Of a stretch of 36,842 nucleotides of DNA, positions 2,871-16,398 are shown one piece after another; position 1 is the first letter of the stretch, and each line of letters begins with the position of its first letter. The stretch is from a virus. Position numbers and translations under genes: made by a program. The DNA lies in the IMG/VR virus record IMGVR_UViG_3300046642_000653, positions 1 to 36,842 of that record. The stretch is one strand, 5' to 3'. The notes beneath the pieces were generated by a model that was given only the letters and a program-made list of their open reading frames with translations, was not told where the DNA came from and made no database searches.

Positions 2871-3028
2871 GTCCACCACGTCGCAAGCATCCTGACGAGG
2901 ACTGCTATCGCCGCGATCGACGCGCTACCGAGGGTAAAGCCGGCGATGAAACCGTCGTGCCAGCCTTCGTAGAGACCATTGCGATGGCCCGCAAAGAACG
3001 CTATGGCGGTGCGGCGGGTTGCGGTCAT
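2867..3028 (-). CDS. Short membrane protein (53 residues)
   Basis: This short gene fills the space between the GapR-like gene and the gene at 2643. It reads MTATRRTAIAFFAGHRNG, then a soluble segment with GWHDGFIAG, and one hydrophobic helix (TLGSASIAAIAVLVRMLATW) at the C-terminus. Both ends are translationally coupled: its ATG overlaps the GapR-like stop as ATGA (3025-3028) and its TGA overlaps the next ATG (2867-2870). The coupling and the predicted membrane helix make it a credible gene. Function is unknown. Confidence 0.65.
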   Translation of the reverse strand: MTATRRTAIAFFAGHRNGLYEGWHDGFIAGFTLGSASIAAIAVLVRMLATWWT

Positions 3029-3718: not shown

Positions 3719-4134
3719 CCGGTGCCGCCGATCTTCAGCGTTGGCGGGTGCGATTCCGCGTCATCCGGCGAGCGCCGGAAGCGGTGCGGCACGCCGGTCC
3801 TGTCGAGGGGCGTTTGCCTTCCGTCTCGCCGGTCTATCCGCTCCAATTCCGCCATCAGGAGGGCGCAGGCGATCAGATAGGCTTCGCGTGCCGGGCGCGG
3901 TTTCGGGCCGCGTTCGTCGAAGGGCCAGCACCGGTTGGAGCGCTGGGTCAGGATCTGGCGGATCGGAAGATGGCCGGGAACTGATCCCGCCGCCCCCACG
4001 AGCGCATAGGCTGCCGCGGCGCGCGCCAATTCCCCCATGTCCTGAACGTCATCGTGCTCGGGCGGGGAACGCTCTTCCAAGCGCATCCGCTCTAGCGCGA
4101 TGTCGTTGAGGAGCTGGAAGACGGGGTCGCGCAT
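3715..4134 (-). CDS. Conserved phage protein of unknown function
   Basis: This 139-residue protein matches a pattern seen in many phages: an N-terminal helix rich in E and R (LNDIALERMRLEERSPPEHD), then DMGELARAAAAYAL, a WPFDERGPKPRPAR segment and a closing helix LIACALLMAELERIDR. The last 30 residues are variable and Pro/Arg-rich. The family has no assigned activity. It overlaps the next gene start as ATGA and lies 8 bases after the gene at 4143. Confidence 0.7.
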   Translation of the reverse strand: MRDPVFQLLNDIALERMRLEERSPPEHDDVQDMGELARAAAAYALVGAAGSVPGHLPIRQILTQRSNRCWPFDERGPKPRPAREAYLIACALLMAELERIDRRDGRQTPLDRTGVPHRFRRSPDDAESHPPTLKIGGTG

Positions 4135-5262: not shown

Positions 5263-5537
5263 GGTTGTCCTTTCCCGGCGGCGCGCGCGGCGGCCATCCG
5301 TTTCCTGCTACGCCAACCACGCTTTGAGGCTTCACGCCGGATCAGCGCCTTGATATTGCGGGTGATCAAATCGATAACCGGTTGATCTTGTGGGTGCGTT
5401 ACGTGGAACGCCGACGCTCGGCAGGCGCAAACCGCGCGGCGGCACCGCTTGCAGAATGATGATTCATCGGTGTTCGACGCCGGCGGGTCCGCTTCGGGCA
5501 ACCCGGAGAGTGGCGAGGCTTTGGGAAAGGCGGTCAT
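5259..5537 (-). CDS. Hypothetical protein with Cys cluster
   Basis: The protein is 92 residues when started at the ATG at 5537, chosen because it overlaps the upstream stop as ATGA; a longer in-frame start at 5564 would overlap much more. A CKRCRRAVCAC cluster near residue 30 suggests a small metal site. The C-terminal half is strongly basic (IKALIRREASKRGWRSRKR), consistent with nucleic-acid binding. I do not recognise a family. Confidence 0.6.
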   Translation of the reverse strand: MTAFPKASPLSGLPEADPPASNTDESSFCKRCRRAVCACRASAFHVTHPQDQPVIDLITRNIKALIRREASKRGWRSRKRMAAARAAGKGQP

Positions 5538-9413: not shown

Positions 9414-9647
9414 TCACGCCGCCTCCTGCGAGTTTGGCCGGCATCCTTCCGGCAGCTCGGGGAGGTCGTAGAAGTCGTTGGGGGTGACTTGACCGCCTGT
9501 CAGCGAGAAAAGCGTCGCCGCAAGTTGGTCGCCCGGTTTCTGCTTTCCCCGGCGAAGTCGCGAGATCGTGGCGCGCGTCACGTTCGCTTTTTCGGCGAGC
9601 GTTTCGTCATCAAGGCCGTTGGCCGTCATCCAGTCCGCGAGGCTCAT
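9414..9647 (-). CDS. Cro-like XRE transcriptional regulator (first early gene)
   Basis: The protein is 77 residues from the ATG at 9647. It has a clear XRE helix-turn-helix: MSLADWMTANGLDDETLAEK, then ANVTRATISRLRRGKQKPG and LAATLFSLTGG. The size and the position as first gene of the leftward early operon suit a Cro-type repressor. No good Shine-Dalgarno is seen, and the candidate promoter places the transcript start almost at the ATG, so the message may be leaderless. It diverges from the second XRE regulator at 9781. Confidence 0.8.
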   Translation of the reverse strand: MSLADWMTANGLDDETLAEKANVTRATISRLRRGKQKPGDQLAATLFSLTGGQVTPNDFYDLPELPEGCRPNSQEAA

Positions 9648-9655
9648 GGGCACCA

Positions 9656-9683
9656 AATGTACGGCGTACGCACAGTCTGTCAA
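9656..9683 (-). promoter_or_regulatory. Leftward early promoter with overlapping CGTAC operator
   Basis: On the minus strand an exact TTGACA (9683-9678) is followed after 16 bases by TACATT (9661-9656). The inverted repeat GTACG-G-CGTAC (9659-9669) covers the spacer and the start of the -10. The start codon of the Cro-like gene is only 9 bases below the -10. A second small palindrome, CACA-TAT-TGTG, lies at 9685-9695. Confidence 0.6.
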
Positions 9684-9780
9684 CCACATATTGTGCGGGA
9701 GGCGGCCTGGACACACCGCGCTTGCCGATTACCCTTTGTGCATGATACGTACACGGCGGCACCAAAAGGATTTTTCGCGG

Positions 9781-10086
9781 ATGCGCCGCATTTTTTTCCG
9801 CGAGTGGCGCAAGCATCGCGGTTTGACTTTGGAGCGCGCGGCCGAGCGAATCGACATGTCGCACGCAAATCTGAGCCGGATCGAGCGCGGTTTGCAGCCA
9901 TACGACGAAGTCATATTGGCAGCGCTGGCCGGAGCCTATCGCTGCGACCCGGTCGACCTCCTGATCCGCAATCCGCTAGACCCAGATGGCATCTGGTCGG
10001 TCTGGGACCAGATCGAGCCGGAACGGCGCTCCGAGGCCGTAGAGCTATTGAAGGTCCTCGTCAGCAAGCGGACCGCGGCGATCTGA
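9781..10086 (+). CDS. XRE-family regulator (CI-like candidate)
   Basis: The protein is 101 residues from the ATG at 9781. That start is preferred because AAAAGGA lies 10 bases before it; an upstream in-frame ATG at 9742 falls in the operator region. An N-terminal XRE domain reads WRKHRGLTLERAAERIDMSH, then ANLSRIERGLQPYDE and LAALAGAYRCDP. A short C-terminal helix follows (PERRSEAVELLKVL). There is no peptidase domain, so it would not be a RecA-cleavable CI, but it is the best candidate for the lysogeny repressor or its antagonist. It faces the Cro-like gene across the shared operator region. Confidence 0.8.
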   Translation: MRRIFFREWRKHRGLTLERAAERIDMSHANLSRIERGLQPYDEVILAALAGAYRCDPVDLLIRNPLDPDGIWSVWDQIEPERRSEAVELLKVLVSKRTAAI

Positions 10087-10110
10087 GCCTCCAATTATTT
10101 GTTCGGCTGG

Positions 10111-10153
10111 CGTACGAATTTCCTTGCGCAGATTTGTACGTGGGGCGTACATT
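10111..10153 (+). promoter_or_regulatory. Rightward promoter with CGTAC operators
   Basis: TTGCGC (10124-10129) and TACATT (10148-10153), 18 bases apart, form a candidate promoter for the rightward operon. The inverted repeat TGTACG-TGGGG-CGTACA (10135-10151) overlaps the spacer and -10, and CGTACG (10111-10116) lies upstream. The -10 context CGTACATTT is identical to that of the leftward promoter, suggesting one regulator acts on both. Confidence 0.5.
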
Positions 10154-10154
10154 T

Positions 10155-10177
10155 CCTCCCGTCACCCCGATGGGAGG
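10155..10177 (+). promoter_or_regulatory. Hairpin enclosing the ribosome binding site of the gene at 10186
   Basis: CCTCCCGTC and GATGGGAGG (10155-10163, 10169-10177) pair with one G-U around the loop ACCCC. The 3' arm contains the GGGAGG Shine-Dalgarno, 8 bases before the GTG start. If transcription starts near 10160, the 5' arm would be only partly transcribed. Confidence 0.4.
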
Positions 10178-10185
10178 CTACCGCC

Positions 10186-10272
10186 GTGTCAGATCGGCTC
10201 TTCAATCGCCTGCTGAGGATCGGCTTCGCCGCCGAGGCATTCGTCGTCGCCCTCATGGTCGGTCTGCCATGA
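10186..10272 (+). CDS. 28-residue peptide, first gene of the rightward operon
   Basis: A GTG-started ORF (VSDRLFNRLLRIGFAAEAF, then VVALMVGLP) follows a very strong GGGAGG site at 8 bases. Its TGA overlaps the next ATG as ATGA. The C-terminal half is hydrophobic, so it may be a small membrane peptide. Both the start signal and the coupling argue for translation. Confidence 0.6.
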   Translation: MSDRLFNRLLRIGFAAEAFVVALMVGLP

Positions 10273-10640
10273 CCGTCGTGCGCTATCCCCTCCCCCACTG
10301 GCCCGAAGAACTCGACGAGCACGAGCGCTCGATCGAGGAACTGAGCTGGGAGAGCGACACGCCGGTCATCGCCGGCGAGGCGCATGCCGACATCCTGGCC
10401 CGCAAGCTCGACCGCATCGAAGAGCTGCACGCCGACAACGAAGCCGACGCGCACCCGTCGTTCGAGCGGATTGCGCGCGCCCAGGCCCTGGCCGCAGGGT
10501 GCGATGCCCTCGGGGCGAGCGGCACTGAACTGGTTGCAGCTTGCATCGAGCCCCGCTGGCATAGCCGGCTGATCATGTGGGTGTGCTGGCCGATCGTCGC
10601 GCTCTGCGTGGTCGGGCTCATGGTTGCGGTGGTCGGGTGA
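10269..10640 (+). CDS. Tail-anchored membrane protein, unknown
   Basis: This 123-residue protein begins MTVVRYPLPHWPEELDEHER. A long acidic helical region (IAGEAHADILARKLDRIEEL and following, residues about 35-95) is followed by one C-terminal membrane helix (LIMWVCWPIVALCVVGLMVA). A cytoplasmic helical domain with a tail anchor suits a small regulatory or superinfection-immunity protein, but no family is recognised. It is coupled to both neighbours (ATGA upstream, TGATG downstream). Confidence 0.6.
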   Translation: MTVVRYPLPHWPEELDEHERSIEELSWESDTPVIAGEAHADILARKLDRIEELHADNEADAHPSFERIARAQALAAGCDALGASGTELVAACIEPRWHSRLIMWVCWPIVALCVVGLMVAVVG

Positions 10641-10864
10641 TGGCAATCCCTAATTGGGTCGAGTTCACCTTCCTCGACGGTCGTCGCTACCGGACCGCTG
10701 GCCCACACCTGGAACGCCTGAGCCCGGGCGGCCAGCGCTGGACGACAGTGCCGAAGCCGACCTTCCTCCTGAGCCGCGCGCGATTCGTGGCCGAGGATAC
10801 CCGTAAGAGCAATGCCACATCCGAGGCACCCAACCCCCAAGACACCGGCGTCGAACACCGATGA
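10640..10864 (+). CDS. Hypothetical protein
   Basis: This 74-residue protein reads MAIPNWVEFTFLDGRRYRTA, then HLERLSPGGQRWTTVPKPTF. The ATG at 10640 overlaps the upstream TGA, so the longer in-frame start at 10577 is not used. A small beta-rich domain is likely. The last 20 residues look disordered. No family is recognised. Confidence 0.55.
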   Translation: MAIPNWVEFTFLDGRRYRTAGPHLERLSPGGQRWTTVPKPTFLLSRARFVAEDTRKSNATSEAPNPQDTGVEHR

Positions 10865-10873
10865 ACCCAAACC

Positions 10874-10892
10874 CCTCTTCCCCCCGAAGAGG
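10874..10892 (+). promoter_or_regulatory. Stem-loop over the Shine-Dalgarno of the gene at 10904
   Basis: CCTCTTC-CCCCC-GAAGAGG is a perfect 7-base-pair hairpin with an all-C loop. Its 3' arm supplies the only purine-rich site (AGAGG) before the ATG at 10904. The 11 bases that follow (ACTATTCCCCC) nearly match those after the hairpin at 11531. Confidence 0.6.
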
Positions 10893-10903
10893 ACTATTCC
10901 CCC

Positions 10904-11134
10904 ATGGTCCAATGGAACCTTGGCCCGACCTGGGCCGAGCGCACCCGGAGTTATGCCCGGGACGCGACAAAGCCGATCGTCGGAAGACTTACAAGACAGA
11001 CCCCCTTAGCCTTTCAAATCTCGACCGCAACCCGGGAGCGCGTCTGGCTCCCGAAGAAGCTGGTCAGTCACGTTGCGGCCAACGGCATCTTCATGATGCC
11101 GATGTGGCTGGCAAACGAAAAGCTGCTCGACTGA
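10904..11134 (+). CDS. Small phage protein, paralogue of the gene at 2643
   Basis: This 76-residue protein begins MVQWNLGPTWAERTRSYARD. The C-terminal 40 residues, FQISTATRERVWLPKKLVS followed by FMMPMWLANEKLLD, align with the gene at 2643-2870 (FLVFDGTKEVWLRKSQ...FAMPEWLAKDKGLI). The function of this family is unknown. Translation is probably governed by the stem-loop over its ribosome site. Confidence 0.65.
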   Translation: MVQWNLGPTWAERTRSYARDATKPIVGRLTRQTPLAFQISTATRERVWLPKKLVSHVAANGIFMMPMWLANEKLLD

Positions 11135-11161
11135 TCCGCTCACACCCAGAAGGAGAAGACA

Positions 11162-11404
11162 ATGGCGTTCAAATTCCAGCGCGGCGAATATCTCAAAGAC
11201 ATCGTCACGTCGTTTGCTGGCGTATGCACTGCCAGATCGGATCATCTGACATCTTGCAATCAGTATTATCTGAAGCCGCCCATCGACAAGGACGGCAAAG
11301 ACTCGGATGGCCACTGGTACGACGAGCACAGCCTGCAACACGATCCGGCACACCTGAACGAGAAGCTCGATCTAACGCTCGCTCATGGACAACCGCCCGG
11401 CTGA
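11162..11404 (+). CDS. Small conserved phage protein (LKDIVTSF...LTSCNQY)
   Basis: This 80-residue protein reads FQRGEYLKDIVTSFAGVCTA, RSDHLTSCNQYYL, then DKDGKDSDGHWYDEHSL. The pattern of a short beta barrel-like domain (KDIVTGF.G...R..YLTGC.QY) followed by W.DE recurs in phage proteins of unknown function. A good AGAAGGAGA site precedes the ATG. The segment 11405-11530 downstream has no convincing gene. It does contain AAAAGCTACTCGACTG, close to the last codons of the preceding gene (11117-11132), possibly a leftover duplicate. Confidence 0.65.
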   Translation: MAFKFQRGEYLKDIVTSFAGVCTARSDHLTSCNQYYLKPPIDKDGKDSDGHWYDEHSLQHDPAHLNEKLDLTLAHGQPPG

Positions 11405-11530
11405 TTCAAAAAGCTACTCGACTGGTTCTCCCGAGCAGCCTGCGACAAGACGGTGAGTGTCGCCGAAGCCACTCGAAACAACCCCGTCAGCCGGTGGATG
11501 GCAGGTCCTCTGCGCCCTCGCGACCGGCAA

Positions 11531-11550
11531 TCCTTTTACCCCCAAAAGGA
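11531..11550 (+). promoter_or_regulatory. Stem-loop over the Shine-Dalgarno of the HNH gene at 11560
   Basis: TCCTTTT-ACCCCC-AAAAGGA forms a perfect 7-base-pair hairpin. The 3' arm is the AAAAGGA ribosome site, 9 bases before the ATG. The arms differ in sequence from the hairpin at 10874 but keep pairing, while the C-rich loop and the CATTCCCCC-ATG context are alike. Confidence 0.6.
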
Positions 11551-11559
11551 CATTCCCCC

Positions 11560-11952
11560 ATGCCCTTCCCCCAGACCGGGCAACTGACCCGCGTCTCCTA
11601 CCCGTTACCGCCGCGCCGCAAGCGGGTCCGCTCCGAGATCCCGCGCGGCCCGAAGCGCATCTGGCTGCGGCACCGCAAGTTCGTGCGCTCGCACCGCTGC
11701 GTTGTGCCCGGGTGCCCGGCGATGCTGGTCGACTTCCACCACATCCGCGACTCCGCCAATGCGGGGATCGGGCTGAAAAGCCACGACGCTTTCGGCGTCG
11801 CCCTCTGCCGCCTGCATCACGACGAACACCACAGCTGCGGCGTCGGAACCTTTGAAGACCGGCACGGGATCGACCTCTACGCGATAGCCGCGGAGTTCGT
11901 GCGCCGCTCGCCGGACTGGAAGATGCGGGCGTCACTGGCGGAGGCGGCATGA
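11560..11952 (+). CDS. HNH-family (DUF968-like) nuclease
   Basis: This 130-residue protein starts MPFPQTGQLTRVSYPLPPRR. The nuclease core is HRKFVRSHRCVVPGCPA, then DFHHIRDSANAGIGLKSHD, and ALCRLHHDEHHSCGV. The CxxxxC pair, DFHH and CRLHHDEHH match the HNH/beta-beta-alpha-metal fold of DUF968-type recombination nucleases. Such enzymes can replace Holliday-junction or recombination nucleases in phages. The reading frame stays open far upstream (to 10861), but that part overlaps other genes and is not coding. Confidence 0.8.
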   Translation: MPFPQTGQLTRVSYPLPPRRKRVRSEIPRGPKRIWLRHRKFVRSHRCVVPGCPAMLVDFHHIRDSANAGIGLKSHDAFGVALCRLHHDEHHSCGVGTFEDRHGIDLYAIAAEFVRRSPDWKMRASLAEAA

Positions 11953-12230
11953 TGGTCAAGCCACAAAAACCTTGGCCAAAGCCGACAGGCTTCGACTCCC
12001 CAACGCTCGACCCGTTGCAGACATTGCGGCGCGCCGAAGCCGAACTCGGCGTCCAGATCGCCGAGATGCAGGGCGCCTTGGCCGGCATGGTGGTACAGCA
12101 CAGCCACATCCGCCACGCCCTCGCCGGGCTTGAGAATGCGGCGCTCCCGCGCACGGCTGCGGCCGAGAGTTGGCAGGAGCTATGCGAGCGCGTCTACGCC
12201 CAGATGCTCGCCGCCGGGCCGCCGCGATGA
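11949..12230 (+). CDS. Hypothetical helical protein
   Basis: This 93-residue protein has an N-terminal basic/proline segment (MMVKPQKPWPKPTGFD) and a long helical stretch, LQTLRRAEAELGVQIAEMQG followed by VVQHSHIRHALAGLE, with heptad-like spacing (coiled coil likely). It overlaps the HNH stop and couples to the next membrane gene as ATGA. No family is recognised. Confidence 0.55.
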   Translation: MMVKPQKPWPKPTGFDSPTLDPLQTLRRAEAELGVQIAEMQGALAGMVVQHSHIRHALAGLENAALPRTAAAESWQELCERVYAQMLAAGPPR

Positions 12231-12409
12231 CCCCGCTCGATCAGGCCCTGACCGCGATGCGCTGGGTCCTGTGGCTGGCGATGACCGGGTTTGGCGGCTT
12301 TGGCATGGCGTTCTGGATCATCAGCTTCCGGGCGCCGGCGGCCGGCGATGCGCTGCAATACCTGACGACGGCCGTTCTCATTTTCTACGCCCGCGAAAAG
12401 ACGCGGTGA
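12227..12409 (+). CDS. Two-helix small membrane protein
   Basis: This 60-residue protein has two predicted membrane helices: WVLWLAMTGFGGFGMAFWII (residues about 13-32) and a weaker one at ALQYLTTAVLIFYA. The ends are charged. Size and topology resemble class II holins or immunity proteins, but it sits in the lysogeny operon away from the endolysin, so a membrane-acting accessory role is more likely. It starts within the upstream stop (ATGA). Confidence 0.55.
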   Translation: MTPLDQALTAMRWVLWLAMTGFGGFGMAFWIISFRAPAAGDALQYLTTAVLIFYAREKTR

Positions 12410-12439
12410 TCTCTCTCAACACCGGGGAAGGAAAAGCAC

Positions 12440-12736
12440 ATGACGAAGACCGAAATGATCGCGCTGATCGCCGCGCGCTGCGACACGGACAAGAGGAAAG
12501 CCTCCGATGCGCTCGATACGCTCCTCAGAGCGCTCGCCGATGAGTTGGCAGCCGGGGACCGGGTGCATCTGCCGCATATCGGCGCCCTGGTCGCGGCAGC
12601 CCCGATCGGAGCCCGCGAGGGGCGCAACCCGCGAACCGGAGCCGCAGTCGAGATCAAGCCCTATCGCCGCATCAGGTTCCGTGCAGCAAAGGACTTGAAG
12701 GCTCGCCTGGCGGTGCTTCCGGTCGCCACGGAATAA
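12440..12736 (+). CDS. HU/IHF-family DNA-binding protein
   Basis: This 98-residue protein has the full HU fold. MTKTEMIALIAARCDTDKRK and ALDTLLRALADEL form the dimerisation helices. HLPHIGALVAAAPIGAREG leads into the DNA-binding arm GRNPRTGAAVEIKPY, and RIRFRAAKDLKARL closes it. The RNPRTG arm motif is diagnostic. HU bends DNA and assists recombination and replication; next to integrase and excisionase it may help build the att complex. A GGGGAAGGA site precedes the ATG. Confidence 0.9.
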   Translation: MTKTEMIALIAARCDTDKRKASDALDTLLRALADELAAGDRVHLPHIGALVAAAPIGAREGRNPRTGAAVEIKPYRRIRFRAAKDLKARLAVLPVATE

Positions 12737-14878: not shown

Positions 14879-15140
14879 GCGCGCCCGCCCCTACAGCGTC
14901 GATAGCGCAGCCGAGCATCTTGGCTGTTCCCCGTCGCATATTCGCAACCTATGCTCCCGCGGGGAGTTGCGGCACTTTCGGATCGGTCGGCTGATCAGGA
15001 TCCCGGCTGCCGCCTTGGAGGAACTGGAATGCGGCTCGTGCGATACCGCGGCGCCTTCTACGCCTATTGGCGCGACAAGGGAAAGCCGCGACGCACAGCC
15101 CTTCGTACCAAAGATCGTCAGGCCGCCGAGCGCGCGCTGA
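14871..15140 (+). CDS. Excisionase / MerR-like helix-turn-helix protein
   Basis: This 89-residue protein has an excisionase-type HTH in the first 50 residues: YSVDSAAEHLGCSPSHIRNL, CSRGELRHFRIGRLIRIPAA, LEELECGS. The binding-domain pattern S..EAA..LGVS...VRRLIR.GEL.....GR..RI is standard for Xis/AlpA proteins that direct excision by tyrosine integrases. It overlaps the upstream ASCH gene by 8 bases and the integrase start by 112 bases, so its C-terminal third shares DNA with integrase in another frame. Confidence 0.8.
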   Translation: MAERARPYSVDSAAEHLGCSPSHIRNLCSRGELRHFRIGRLIRIPAAALEELECGSCDTAAPSTPIGATRESRDAQPFVPKIVRPPSAR

Positions 15141-15985
15141 TCGACCTTGAAGCGTCCCTGGCTGGAACCGCCTCGACGGCCGGCGACATCATGGCCCTCT
15201 ACCTCGCAGACAAAGCCGCGAGCCGCCCAGCCGGCGCCGAGCGCGCTCGCTACGCCTGGATGCGCCTGGCGCCCGTCTTTGGTCACCTGCGCCCCGATCA
15301 GATCGGCCGTCCTCTGTGCCGCGCCTATGCCCAGCAACGCCGGCGATCCGGGATCAGCGACGGCACGATCATCAAGGAGCTGGCGAGCCTCCGAGCGGCC
15401 CTGCGCTGGCACGACAAGCTGACGCCGGCAATCGTCGAGATGCCCGCGACGCCCGCCCCTCGAAGCCGCCACCTGACGCGCGAGGAATATCGCAAGCTGC
15501 GCGATGCGGCCCGGCGGACTCCGCATCTCTACCTCTTCATCGTCCTGGCCTATTCGACGGCCGGCCGCGCGTCGGCAATTCTCGAATTGACCTGGGATCG
15601 GATCGATTTCGAGACTGGCCAGATCAAGCTCGGCGCCGGCGAGCGGCGCAGCAAGGGCCGCGCGACGGTGCCGATGACCGAAGGCGCGCACGCGGCCCTT
15701 GAGGAAGCCCAGGAAGCGGCCCTTACCGATCGCGTCATCGAATATGCGGGAAGAGGGGTGCGTAGCGTCAAGCACGCCTTCGCACGGACGGCTGAGCGCG
15801 CCGGCCTGCCCTGGTGCACGCCGCACGTTCTGCGCCACACCGCCGCCGTGCATATGGCCGAATCGAGCGTGCCGATCGCCGAGATCGCGCAATATCTCGG
15901 CCATTCAAGCGAGATGGTGACCTTCCGGGTCTATGCCCGGTTCAGCCCGGACTATCTGCGGCGGGCGGCATCGGCGCTCGAATAA
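15029..15985 (+). CDS. int: Tyrosine recombinase, phage integrase
   Basis: The protein is 318 residues from the ATG at 15029, preceded by GGAGGAACTGGA; earlier in-frame starts lie inside the excisionase gene. An N-terminal arm-binding-like part (FYAYWRDKGKPRRTALRTKD) is followed by a core-binding helical domain (about 50-130) and a catalytic domain. The catalytic domain has Arg in STAGRASAILEL (about 179), Lys in RRSKGRATVPM, HVLRHT (about 267-272), LGHSS (about 291) and the nucleophilic Tyr in FRVYARF (about 301). It would recombine the attP about 120 bases downstream with the host tRNA-Val gene. Confidence 0.95.
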   Translation: MRLVRYRGAFYAYWRDKGKPRRTALRTKDRQAAERALIDLEASLAGTASTAGDIMALYLADKAASRPAGAERARYAWMRLAPVFGHLRPDQIGRPLCRAYAQQRRRSGISDGTIIKELASLRAALRWHDKLTPAIVEMPATPAPRSRHLTREEYRKLRDAARRTPHLYLFIVLAYSTAGRASAILELTWDRIDFETGQIKLGAGERRSKGRATVPMTEGAHAALEEAQEAALTDRVIEYAGRGVRSVKHAFARTAERAGLPWCTPHVLRHTAAVHMAESSVPIAEIAQYLGHSSEMVTFRVYARFSPDYLRRAASALE

Positions 15986-16102
15986 ACAGTGCTGGTGTTC
16001 AGACTGAACACGGCTACCTCAAATCGGTGCGCTCGACCACGTTTGATGCTCGACGAACTGCGCGGATTTGCTTAGTTTGCCCTGGGTGAGCGGCTCGGGA
16101 TC

Positions 16103-16150
16103 GCCTTCACACGGCAGGGGTCGGAGGTTCAAAACCTCCCGCGCCCACCA
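16103..16150 (+). other. attP: 3' half of a tRNA-Val(CAC)-like gene
   Basis: The segment contains an anticodon loop TTCACAC, a T-arm GGAGG-TTCAAAA-CCTCC (16123-16139), an acceptor 3' strand CGCGCCC (16140-16146), a discriminator A and CCA. Upstream, only CTGCGCG gives partial acceptor pairing and no proper D-arm or anticodon 5' arm forms, so this is not a complete tRNA. Phages that integrate into tRNA genes carry exactly this 3' part so that the target is restored. It lies directly after the integrase gene. Confidence 0.8.
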
Positions 16151-16230: not shown

Positions 16231-16265
16231 AAAGGCCGGCACGGGATTGCTCCCGGCCGGCCTTT
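16231..16265. terminator. Bidirectional-looking terminator hairpin 1
   Basis: AAAGGCCGGC (16231-16240) pairs perfectly with 16256-16265, with an inner CGGG/CCCG pairing and an ATTGCT loop. Five A residues (16229-16233) give a T-run for leftward transcripts, and three T residues follow on the right. It lies after attP, between convergent operons. The rest of 16151-16407 holds only this hairpin, a second near-identical one, and no gene. Confidence 0.8.
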
Positions 16266-16355: not shown

Positions 16356-16398
16356 GCCGAAGGCCGGCGCGAGATTGCTCCCGGCCGGCCTTTTCGGC
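16356..16398. terminator. Terminator hairpin 2 (near-copy of hairpin 1)
   Basis: GCCGAAGGCCGGC (16356-16368) pairs with 16384-16398, with a two-base bulge in TTTT. The central 34 bases match hairpin 1 except for two positions. It begins 10 bases after the last lysis-operon gene (16408) in the leftward direction and probably ends late transcription. Confidence 0.8.

Follow-up and report, generated by a model that had tools for sequence, protein, structure and literature searches.

The window, by which we mean the whole stretch of DNA that was analysed, is the 36,842 nt of the viral record IMGVR_UViG_3300046642_000653. It has a rightward early operon at approximately 10.1–16 kb, within which the integrase gene is found (14951–15985), and structural genes that run leftward. 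Just after an HTH gene (9568–10086) and before the first of the hairpins described below, positions 10110–10155 carry the inverted half-sites GTACGAAT/ATTTGTAC, likely to be a repressor operator of the early operon. At the other end, 3' of the integrase gene, a tRNA-like 3' half at about 16090–16150 with CGCGCCCACCA at its end is a likely attachment site. Behind the integrase region a 34-nt direct repeat (16232–16265 and 16360–16393) forms a strong hairpin in each copy (AAGGCCGG...CCGGCCTTT), and these are likely to be paired terminators.

The part of the operon considered here contains a short ORF at 10186–10271 (+) of 28 aa with a GTG start, an uncertain gene that overlaps the next ORF by ATGA and gave no match in the family search. 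It also contains an ORF at 10640–10864 (+), two genes to which no function is assigned, 10904–11134 (+; 76 aa; phrog_8389, E 1e-6) and 11162–11404 (+; 80 aa; phrog_16275, E 2e-13), and an HNH endonuclease gene at 11560–11952 (+; 130 aa; DUF968, E 6e-11). Gene 11162 is flanked by a 16-nt near-identical repeat at 11118–11133 and 11409–11424, as if it had been inserted behind gene 10904. The frame 10861–11952 is open across the leaders of genes 10904 and 11560 and in frame with the HNH gene. We set aside a reading of these leaders as coding sequence because the frame-2 products of genes 10904 and 11162 have PHROG matches.

The genes at 10186, 10904 and 11560 are each preceded by a hairpin with a C-rich loop, here called H3, H1 and H2 respectively, and the 3' arm holds the Shine-Dalgarno (SD) sequence in all three. 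H1 (10874–10892, +) pairs CCTCTTC (10874–10880) with GAAGAGG (10886–10892) over 7 bp around the loop CCCCC, and the C-rich spacer ACTATTCCCCC (10893–10903, +) leads to the ATG at 10904. The stop codon of the ORF at 10640–10864 lies approximately 9–10 nt 5' of its 5' arm. H2 (11531–11550, +) pairs TCCTTTT (11531–11537) with AAAAGGA (11544–11550), also 7 bp, around the loop ACCCCC. Its whole 3' arm, AAAAGGA, is the SD, and its C-rich spacer CATTCCCCC (11551–11559, +), close to that of H1, is followed by the ATG at 11560. H3 (10155–10177, +) has the form CCTCCCGTC-ACCCC-GATGGGAGG, 9 bp including one G-U, with the SD GGGAGG in the 3' arm, then CTACCGCC and the GTG at 10186. An earlier note on this DNA had described both 7-bp hairpins and a third one with the loop ACCCC, and all three are present with the positions and sequences it gave. 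The presence of C-loop hairpins that bury the SD in this early operon is a confirmed observation. Between H1 and H2, gene 11162 has an ordinary, exposed ribosome binding site (RBS). Positions 10891–10910 can also fold into an alternative hairpin, GGACTAT-TCCCCC-ATGGTCC, over the start codon of gene 10904.

The hairpins are more than chance would give. Apart from H1 and H2, the window has no perfect hairpin of at least 7 bp with a loop of four or more C. Hairpins that combine a CCCC loop with an SD in the 3' arm, close to a start, were observed three times, as compared to none in 30 order-1 Markov sequences. Under a looser rule the count was four, where 60 order-3 runs gave 0.1 on average and 2 at most. 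We also made a comparison with 3247 SD-bearing starts from other phage and bacterial loci totalling 2.04 Mb, a set fetched by sequence pattern or homology and so not a random sample, in which 28 starts have an SD-burying stem of at least 7 bp, as compared to 4 of 61 SD-bearing starts in the window (Fisher p 0.0026), where such stems are about eight times commoner. With a CCCC loop the counts are 2 of 61 and 0 of 3247 (p 0.0003). In ensemble folding the SD is approximately 0% unpaired in each of H1, H2 and H3. The fold stability differs between them, with z −3.3 for H3, for which none of 200 shuffles was equally stable, −2.4 for H1 and −1.4 for H2, so that H2 alone is unremarkable for its composition. 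Of the earlier proposal that the hairpins hide ribosome binding sites, the burial of the SD is borne out by the folding and the enrichment, but nothing points to the dedicated RNA-binding protein that it had also considered.

H1 and H2 look like copies of one another, since their leaders are 85% identical over 33 nt with the C-rich context included, and it is probable that a start cassette of hairpin, C-rich spacer and ATG was copied from one gene to the other. The differences between their arms had been taken as compensated. This holds for one pair, the fourth, which changes from C-G to T-A, whereas the remaining differences are a shift in register or loop and one extra outer pair. One pair in two copies gives thin covariation support for the hairpin structure.

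The sole relative with a homologous leader that was found is L093 (IMG/VR 3300033407_000005), in which the leader is 94% identical to the H2 leader over 68 nt. Its 3' arm reads ACAAGG, which leaves 4 bp and an SD that is 3–57% unpaired. The HNH gene breaks off there after approximately eight codons, and a separate RBS (GGAGGAGG) serves the next ATG, for which reason this may be a relic leader. Also lost from L093 are the H1 leader and the start of gene 10904, of which the remnant contains a stop. Homologous leaders without pairing were regarded in the earlier note as speaking against the proposed structure. L093 is one such case, with its stem broken, but it is an unfair test of pairing because the gene served by the leader is deleted. 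Elsewhere in L093, at 1250–1345, a very stable three-way-junction leader (z −4.4) has the SD of the first early gene paired to a C7 run. The two phages together suggest that a hidden SD at the first gene of the operon may persist while the structure around it changes.

The two phages also have in common a 63-nt block, 94% identical, at 10814–10875 in the window and 2751–2813 in L093, where two genes that are otherwise unrelated end in it. It may be a mosaic boundary or a linker between phages. A part of 21 nt is found again at 5463–5483 (−), inside a leftward gene.

These relationships bear on a possible, if doubtful, explanation, in which the leaders are a duplicated start cassette of SD and C-rich spacer that has moved together with genes, and the pyrimidine stretch pairs with the SD without having a regulatory role. 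The similarity of the H1 and H2 leaders would fit with this, and so would the L093 leader, which precedes a different gene and has an uncompensated change in its 3' arm. The flanking blocks have also been shuffled between the two phages, as the block at the ends of unrelated genes shows, and the 16-nt repeat is found on both sides of gene 11162. On the other hand, H3 repeats the layout but not the sequence, none of the comparison starts has a C-loop SD hairpin, and H1 and H2 do have one compensated pair between them.

Scans for the leader pattern across 2.9 million viral contigs and 84,980 genomes did not find the same leader beyond L093, and the remaining matches to the leader pattern in viral and genome contigs are without a C-loop SD hairpin. 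A nucleotide search of the phage collection with 9800–12400 gave no match, and no relative was confirmed among viral and genome contigs by way of the HNH and 80-aa proteins. The HNH homologue in Sphingopyxis phage VSN-002 has a leader without a comparable hairpin, and the homologue of gene 11162 in RcBaka is without such a leader. Genome matches to the 76-aa protein were rejected as antisense chance matches in host genes.

The 11-mer ATTCCCCCATG occurs three times in the window, all on the + strand, at 4029–4039, 10896–10906 and 11552–11562. Because the first copy lies antisense within a leftward gene, the mRNA of that gene carries, over 4029–4039, CAUGGGGGAAU, complementary to the start regions of both leaders, and is predicted to be able to pair with them. 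Together with the absence of the 11-mer from 300 order-2 shuffles, and with arms that vary while loop and spacer are kept, this would fit hairpins whose C-rich loop and spacer are read by a trans-acting factor, be it an antisense RNA or an RNA-binding protein of the phage. We find such a reader unlikely. The site at 4029–4039 falls within a normal coding frame (QDMGE) and is without a counterpart in L093, the record of which has the 11-mer once only, at the leader; moreover, there is no candidate protein, and the C-loop was not found in other phages. A specific form of this idea seems extremely improbable, namely that the C-loop hairpin and ATTCCCCCATG make up a phage-specific translation-control cassette that has been copied to several genes of the operon and is read in trans, for example by the CAUGGGGGAAU of the leftward mRNA, with one transcript silencing the starts of the other.

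It is very unlikely that the inverted repeats act as DNA, whether as a leftward terminator, as operators or as linkers for recombination. H1 does give a terminator-like match when read as its reverse complement, and the neighbouring 63-nt block may be a linker common to both phages, with its 21 nt repeated elsewhere in the window. However, there is no real T-run, and pairing is kept while the arms differ, which would be needless for a sequence-specific DNA operator. The position relative to the SD and start is also constant, as in a translation element.

Directly 5' of H2 (11531) it was possible to recognise a divergent Proteo-phage-1 RNA (RF03044) at 11442–11528 (+), which the earlier note had overlooked. 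The Rfam match, at 11430–11492, is weak, 21.5 bits as compared to a cut-off of 42, and the same stretch matches an alphaproteobacterial genome in which the RNA reaches 50.2 bits and so exceeds the cut-off. The window copy has stem B (GCGA, 11442–11445, with TCGC, 11460–11463, +), a pseudoknot (GACGG, 11449–11453, with CCGTC, 11484–11488, +) and a closing stem C (GCCGGT, 11490–11495, with ACCGGC, 11523–11528, +). Scanning viral contigs for the pattern yielded 49 stretches, and the covariation set consists of 47 distinct copies, two chance matches being left out. The variable positions of GNCGG/CCGNC are Watson-Crick paired in 47 of 47 copies (shuffled mean 18, maximum 27), as A-T in 24, T-A in 15, C-G in 7 and G-C in 1, and this complete pairing with all four Watson-Crick pairs is strong support for the pseudoknot. 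Stem B has all four pairs in 44 of 48 copies, and the closing stem GCCnnn/nnnGGC, which the Rfam model does not include, occurs in 40 of 47 as compared to a shuffled mean of 8.9.

The window copy has the conserved core, stem B and the GNCGG/CCGNC pseudoknot, in common with members above the cut-off, and like the family it has the loop CGGTgAGTG and the AACcCCG strand. Unlike the family, it is without the 5' GC-rich hairpin (of which a 1-nt insert is left in the cmscan alignment) and has the 3' closing stem that is absent from the model. Its short linker and missing 5' hairpin place it in a sub-class together with the copies in L093, L235, L253, L234 and L214. The RF03044 model misses the last four, so that short-linker forms are below the cut-off or unlisted. 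Copies of the form with the covarying pseudoknot and the 3' closing stem were seen in L093 (approximately 2890–3005), L201, L207, L213, L229, L235, L253 and others. Across the family the RNA precedes many different genes. The copy in L211 (14323–14402, −) lies 10 nt past a tRNA gene and that in L214 (approximately 942–984, +) within a phage tRNA array, and these neighbours hint at processing as a separate small RNA. Such varied downstream genes and tRNA settings would suit a free-standing RNA better than a dedicated leader. The C-loop hairpin does not characterise this family and in the window simply comes next in line. The pseudoknot and closing stem, both supported by covariation, and the sub-class missed by the model amount to a testable correction to a poorly understood RNA family.

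The reading that we favour, with a probability of about one half, is that H1, H2 and H3 are cis-acting RNA hairpins which bury the SD and would limit translation of genes 10186, 10904 and 11560. In its favour we count the fully paired SDs, the excess of SD-burying stems and of C-loops, the one compensated pair, and the first early gene of L093, in which the SD is also buried, in a different fold. Against it count the unremarkable fold of H2, the short stem left in the L093 leader, and a leader without other relatives. With the SD buried, the three genes would be poorly translated on a long early mRNA unless the stem opens. For H1, a ribosome ending the upstream gene would cover the 5' arm and free the SD; the hairpin begins approximately 10 nt past the upstream stop, which, judged by the size of the ribosome footprint, makes translational coupling likely. 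H2 has no nearby upstream gene, only structured RNA, so the nuclease may be kept low or delayed, or released only from shorter or processed transcripts. No sigma-70-like promoter for such a shorter transcript was found in 9900–12500, in a scan that would miss phage-specific promoters. We infer the effect on translation, the coupling and the timing; the sequence, the predicted pairing and its excess over chance are observed.

Hairpins that sequester the RBS have been documented for the phage endonuclease genes I-TevI, segB and mobE and for T4 e and soc (PMC2988022, PMC3014915). The hairpins of that type, including that of Aeh1 mobE, are similar to those described here in having a short stem with the SD in the 3' arm, before a nuclease gene and on a polycistronic phage mRNA, and the SD of H1, H2 and H3 is likewise paired in a stem just 5' of the start codon. 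They differ in that no late promoter was found inside the hairpin here, in that the phage and the sequence are unrelated, and in that here several genes of one operon have a common C-rich loop and spacer.

Another resemblance is to the SAS/ESAS elements of cluster K mycobacteriophages, a repeated short motif with an RBS right before several gene starts, of which some copies have inverted repeats and which can move between genes. The ESAS repeats are not considered to be hairpins of the mRNA (PMC3203893). The sequence here is different, the predicted pairing is clear and there are only 2–3 copies; the SAS motif GGGATAGGAGCCC has 14 matches in the window at up to 3 mismatches, as compared to 14.4 expected, and none at the hairpin-bearing starts. 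Hairpins that bury the RBS are a known device, and on present evidence the repeated C-rich loop and spacer are a trait local to this phage. If our reading is true, a temperate phage joins those that restrain an HNH nuclease gene by an RBS hairpin, and one early operon has the device at several of its genes, all with the C-rich loop in common.
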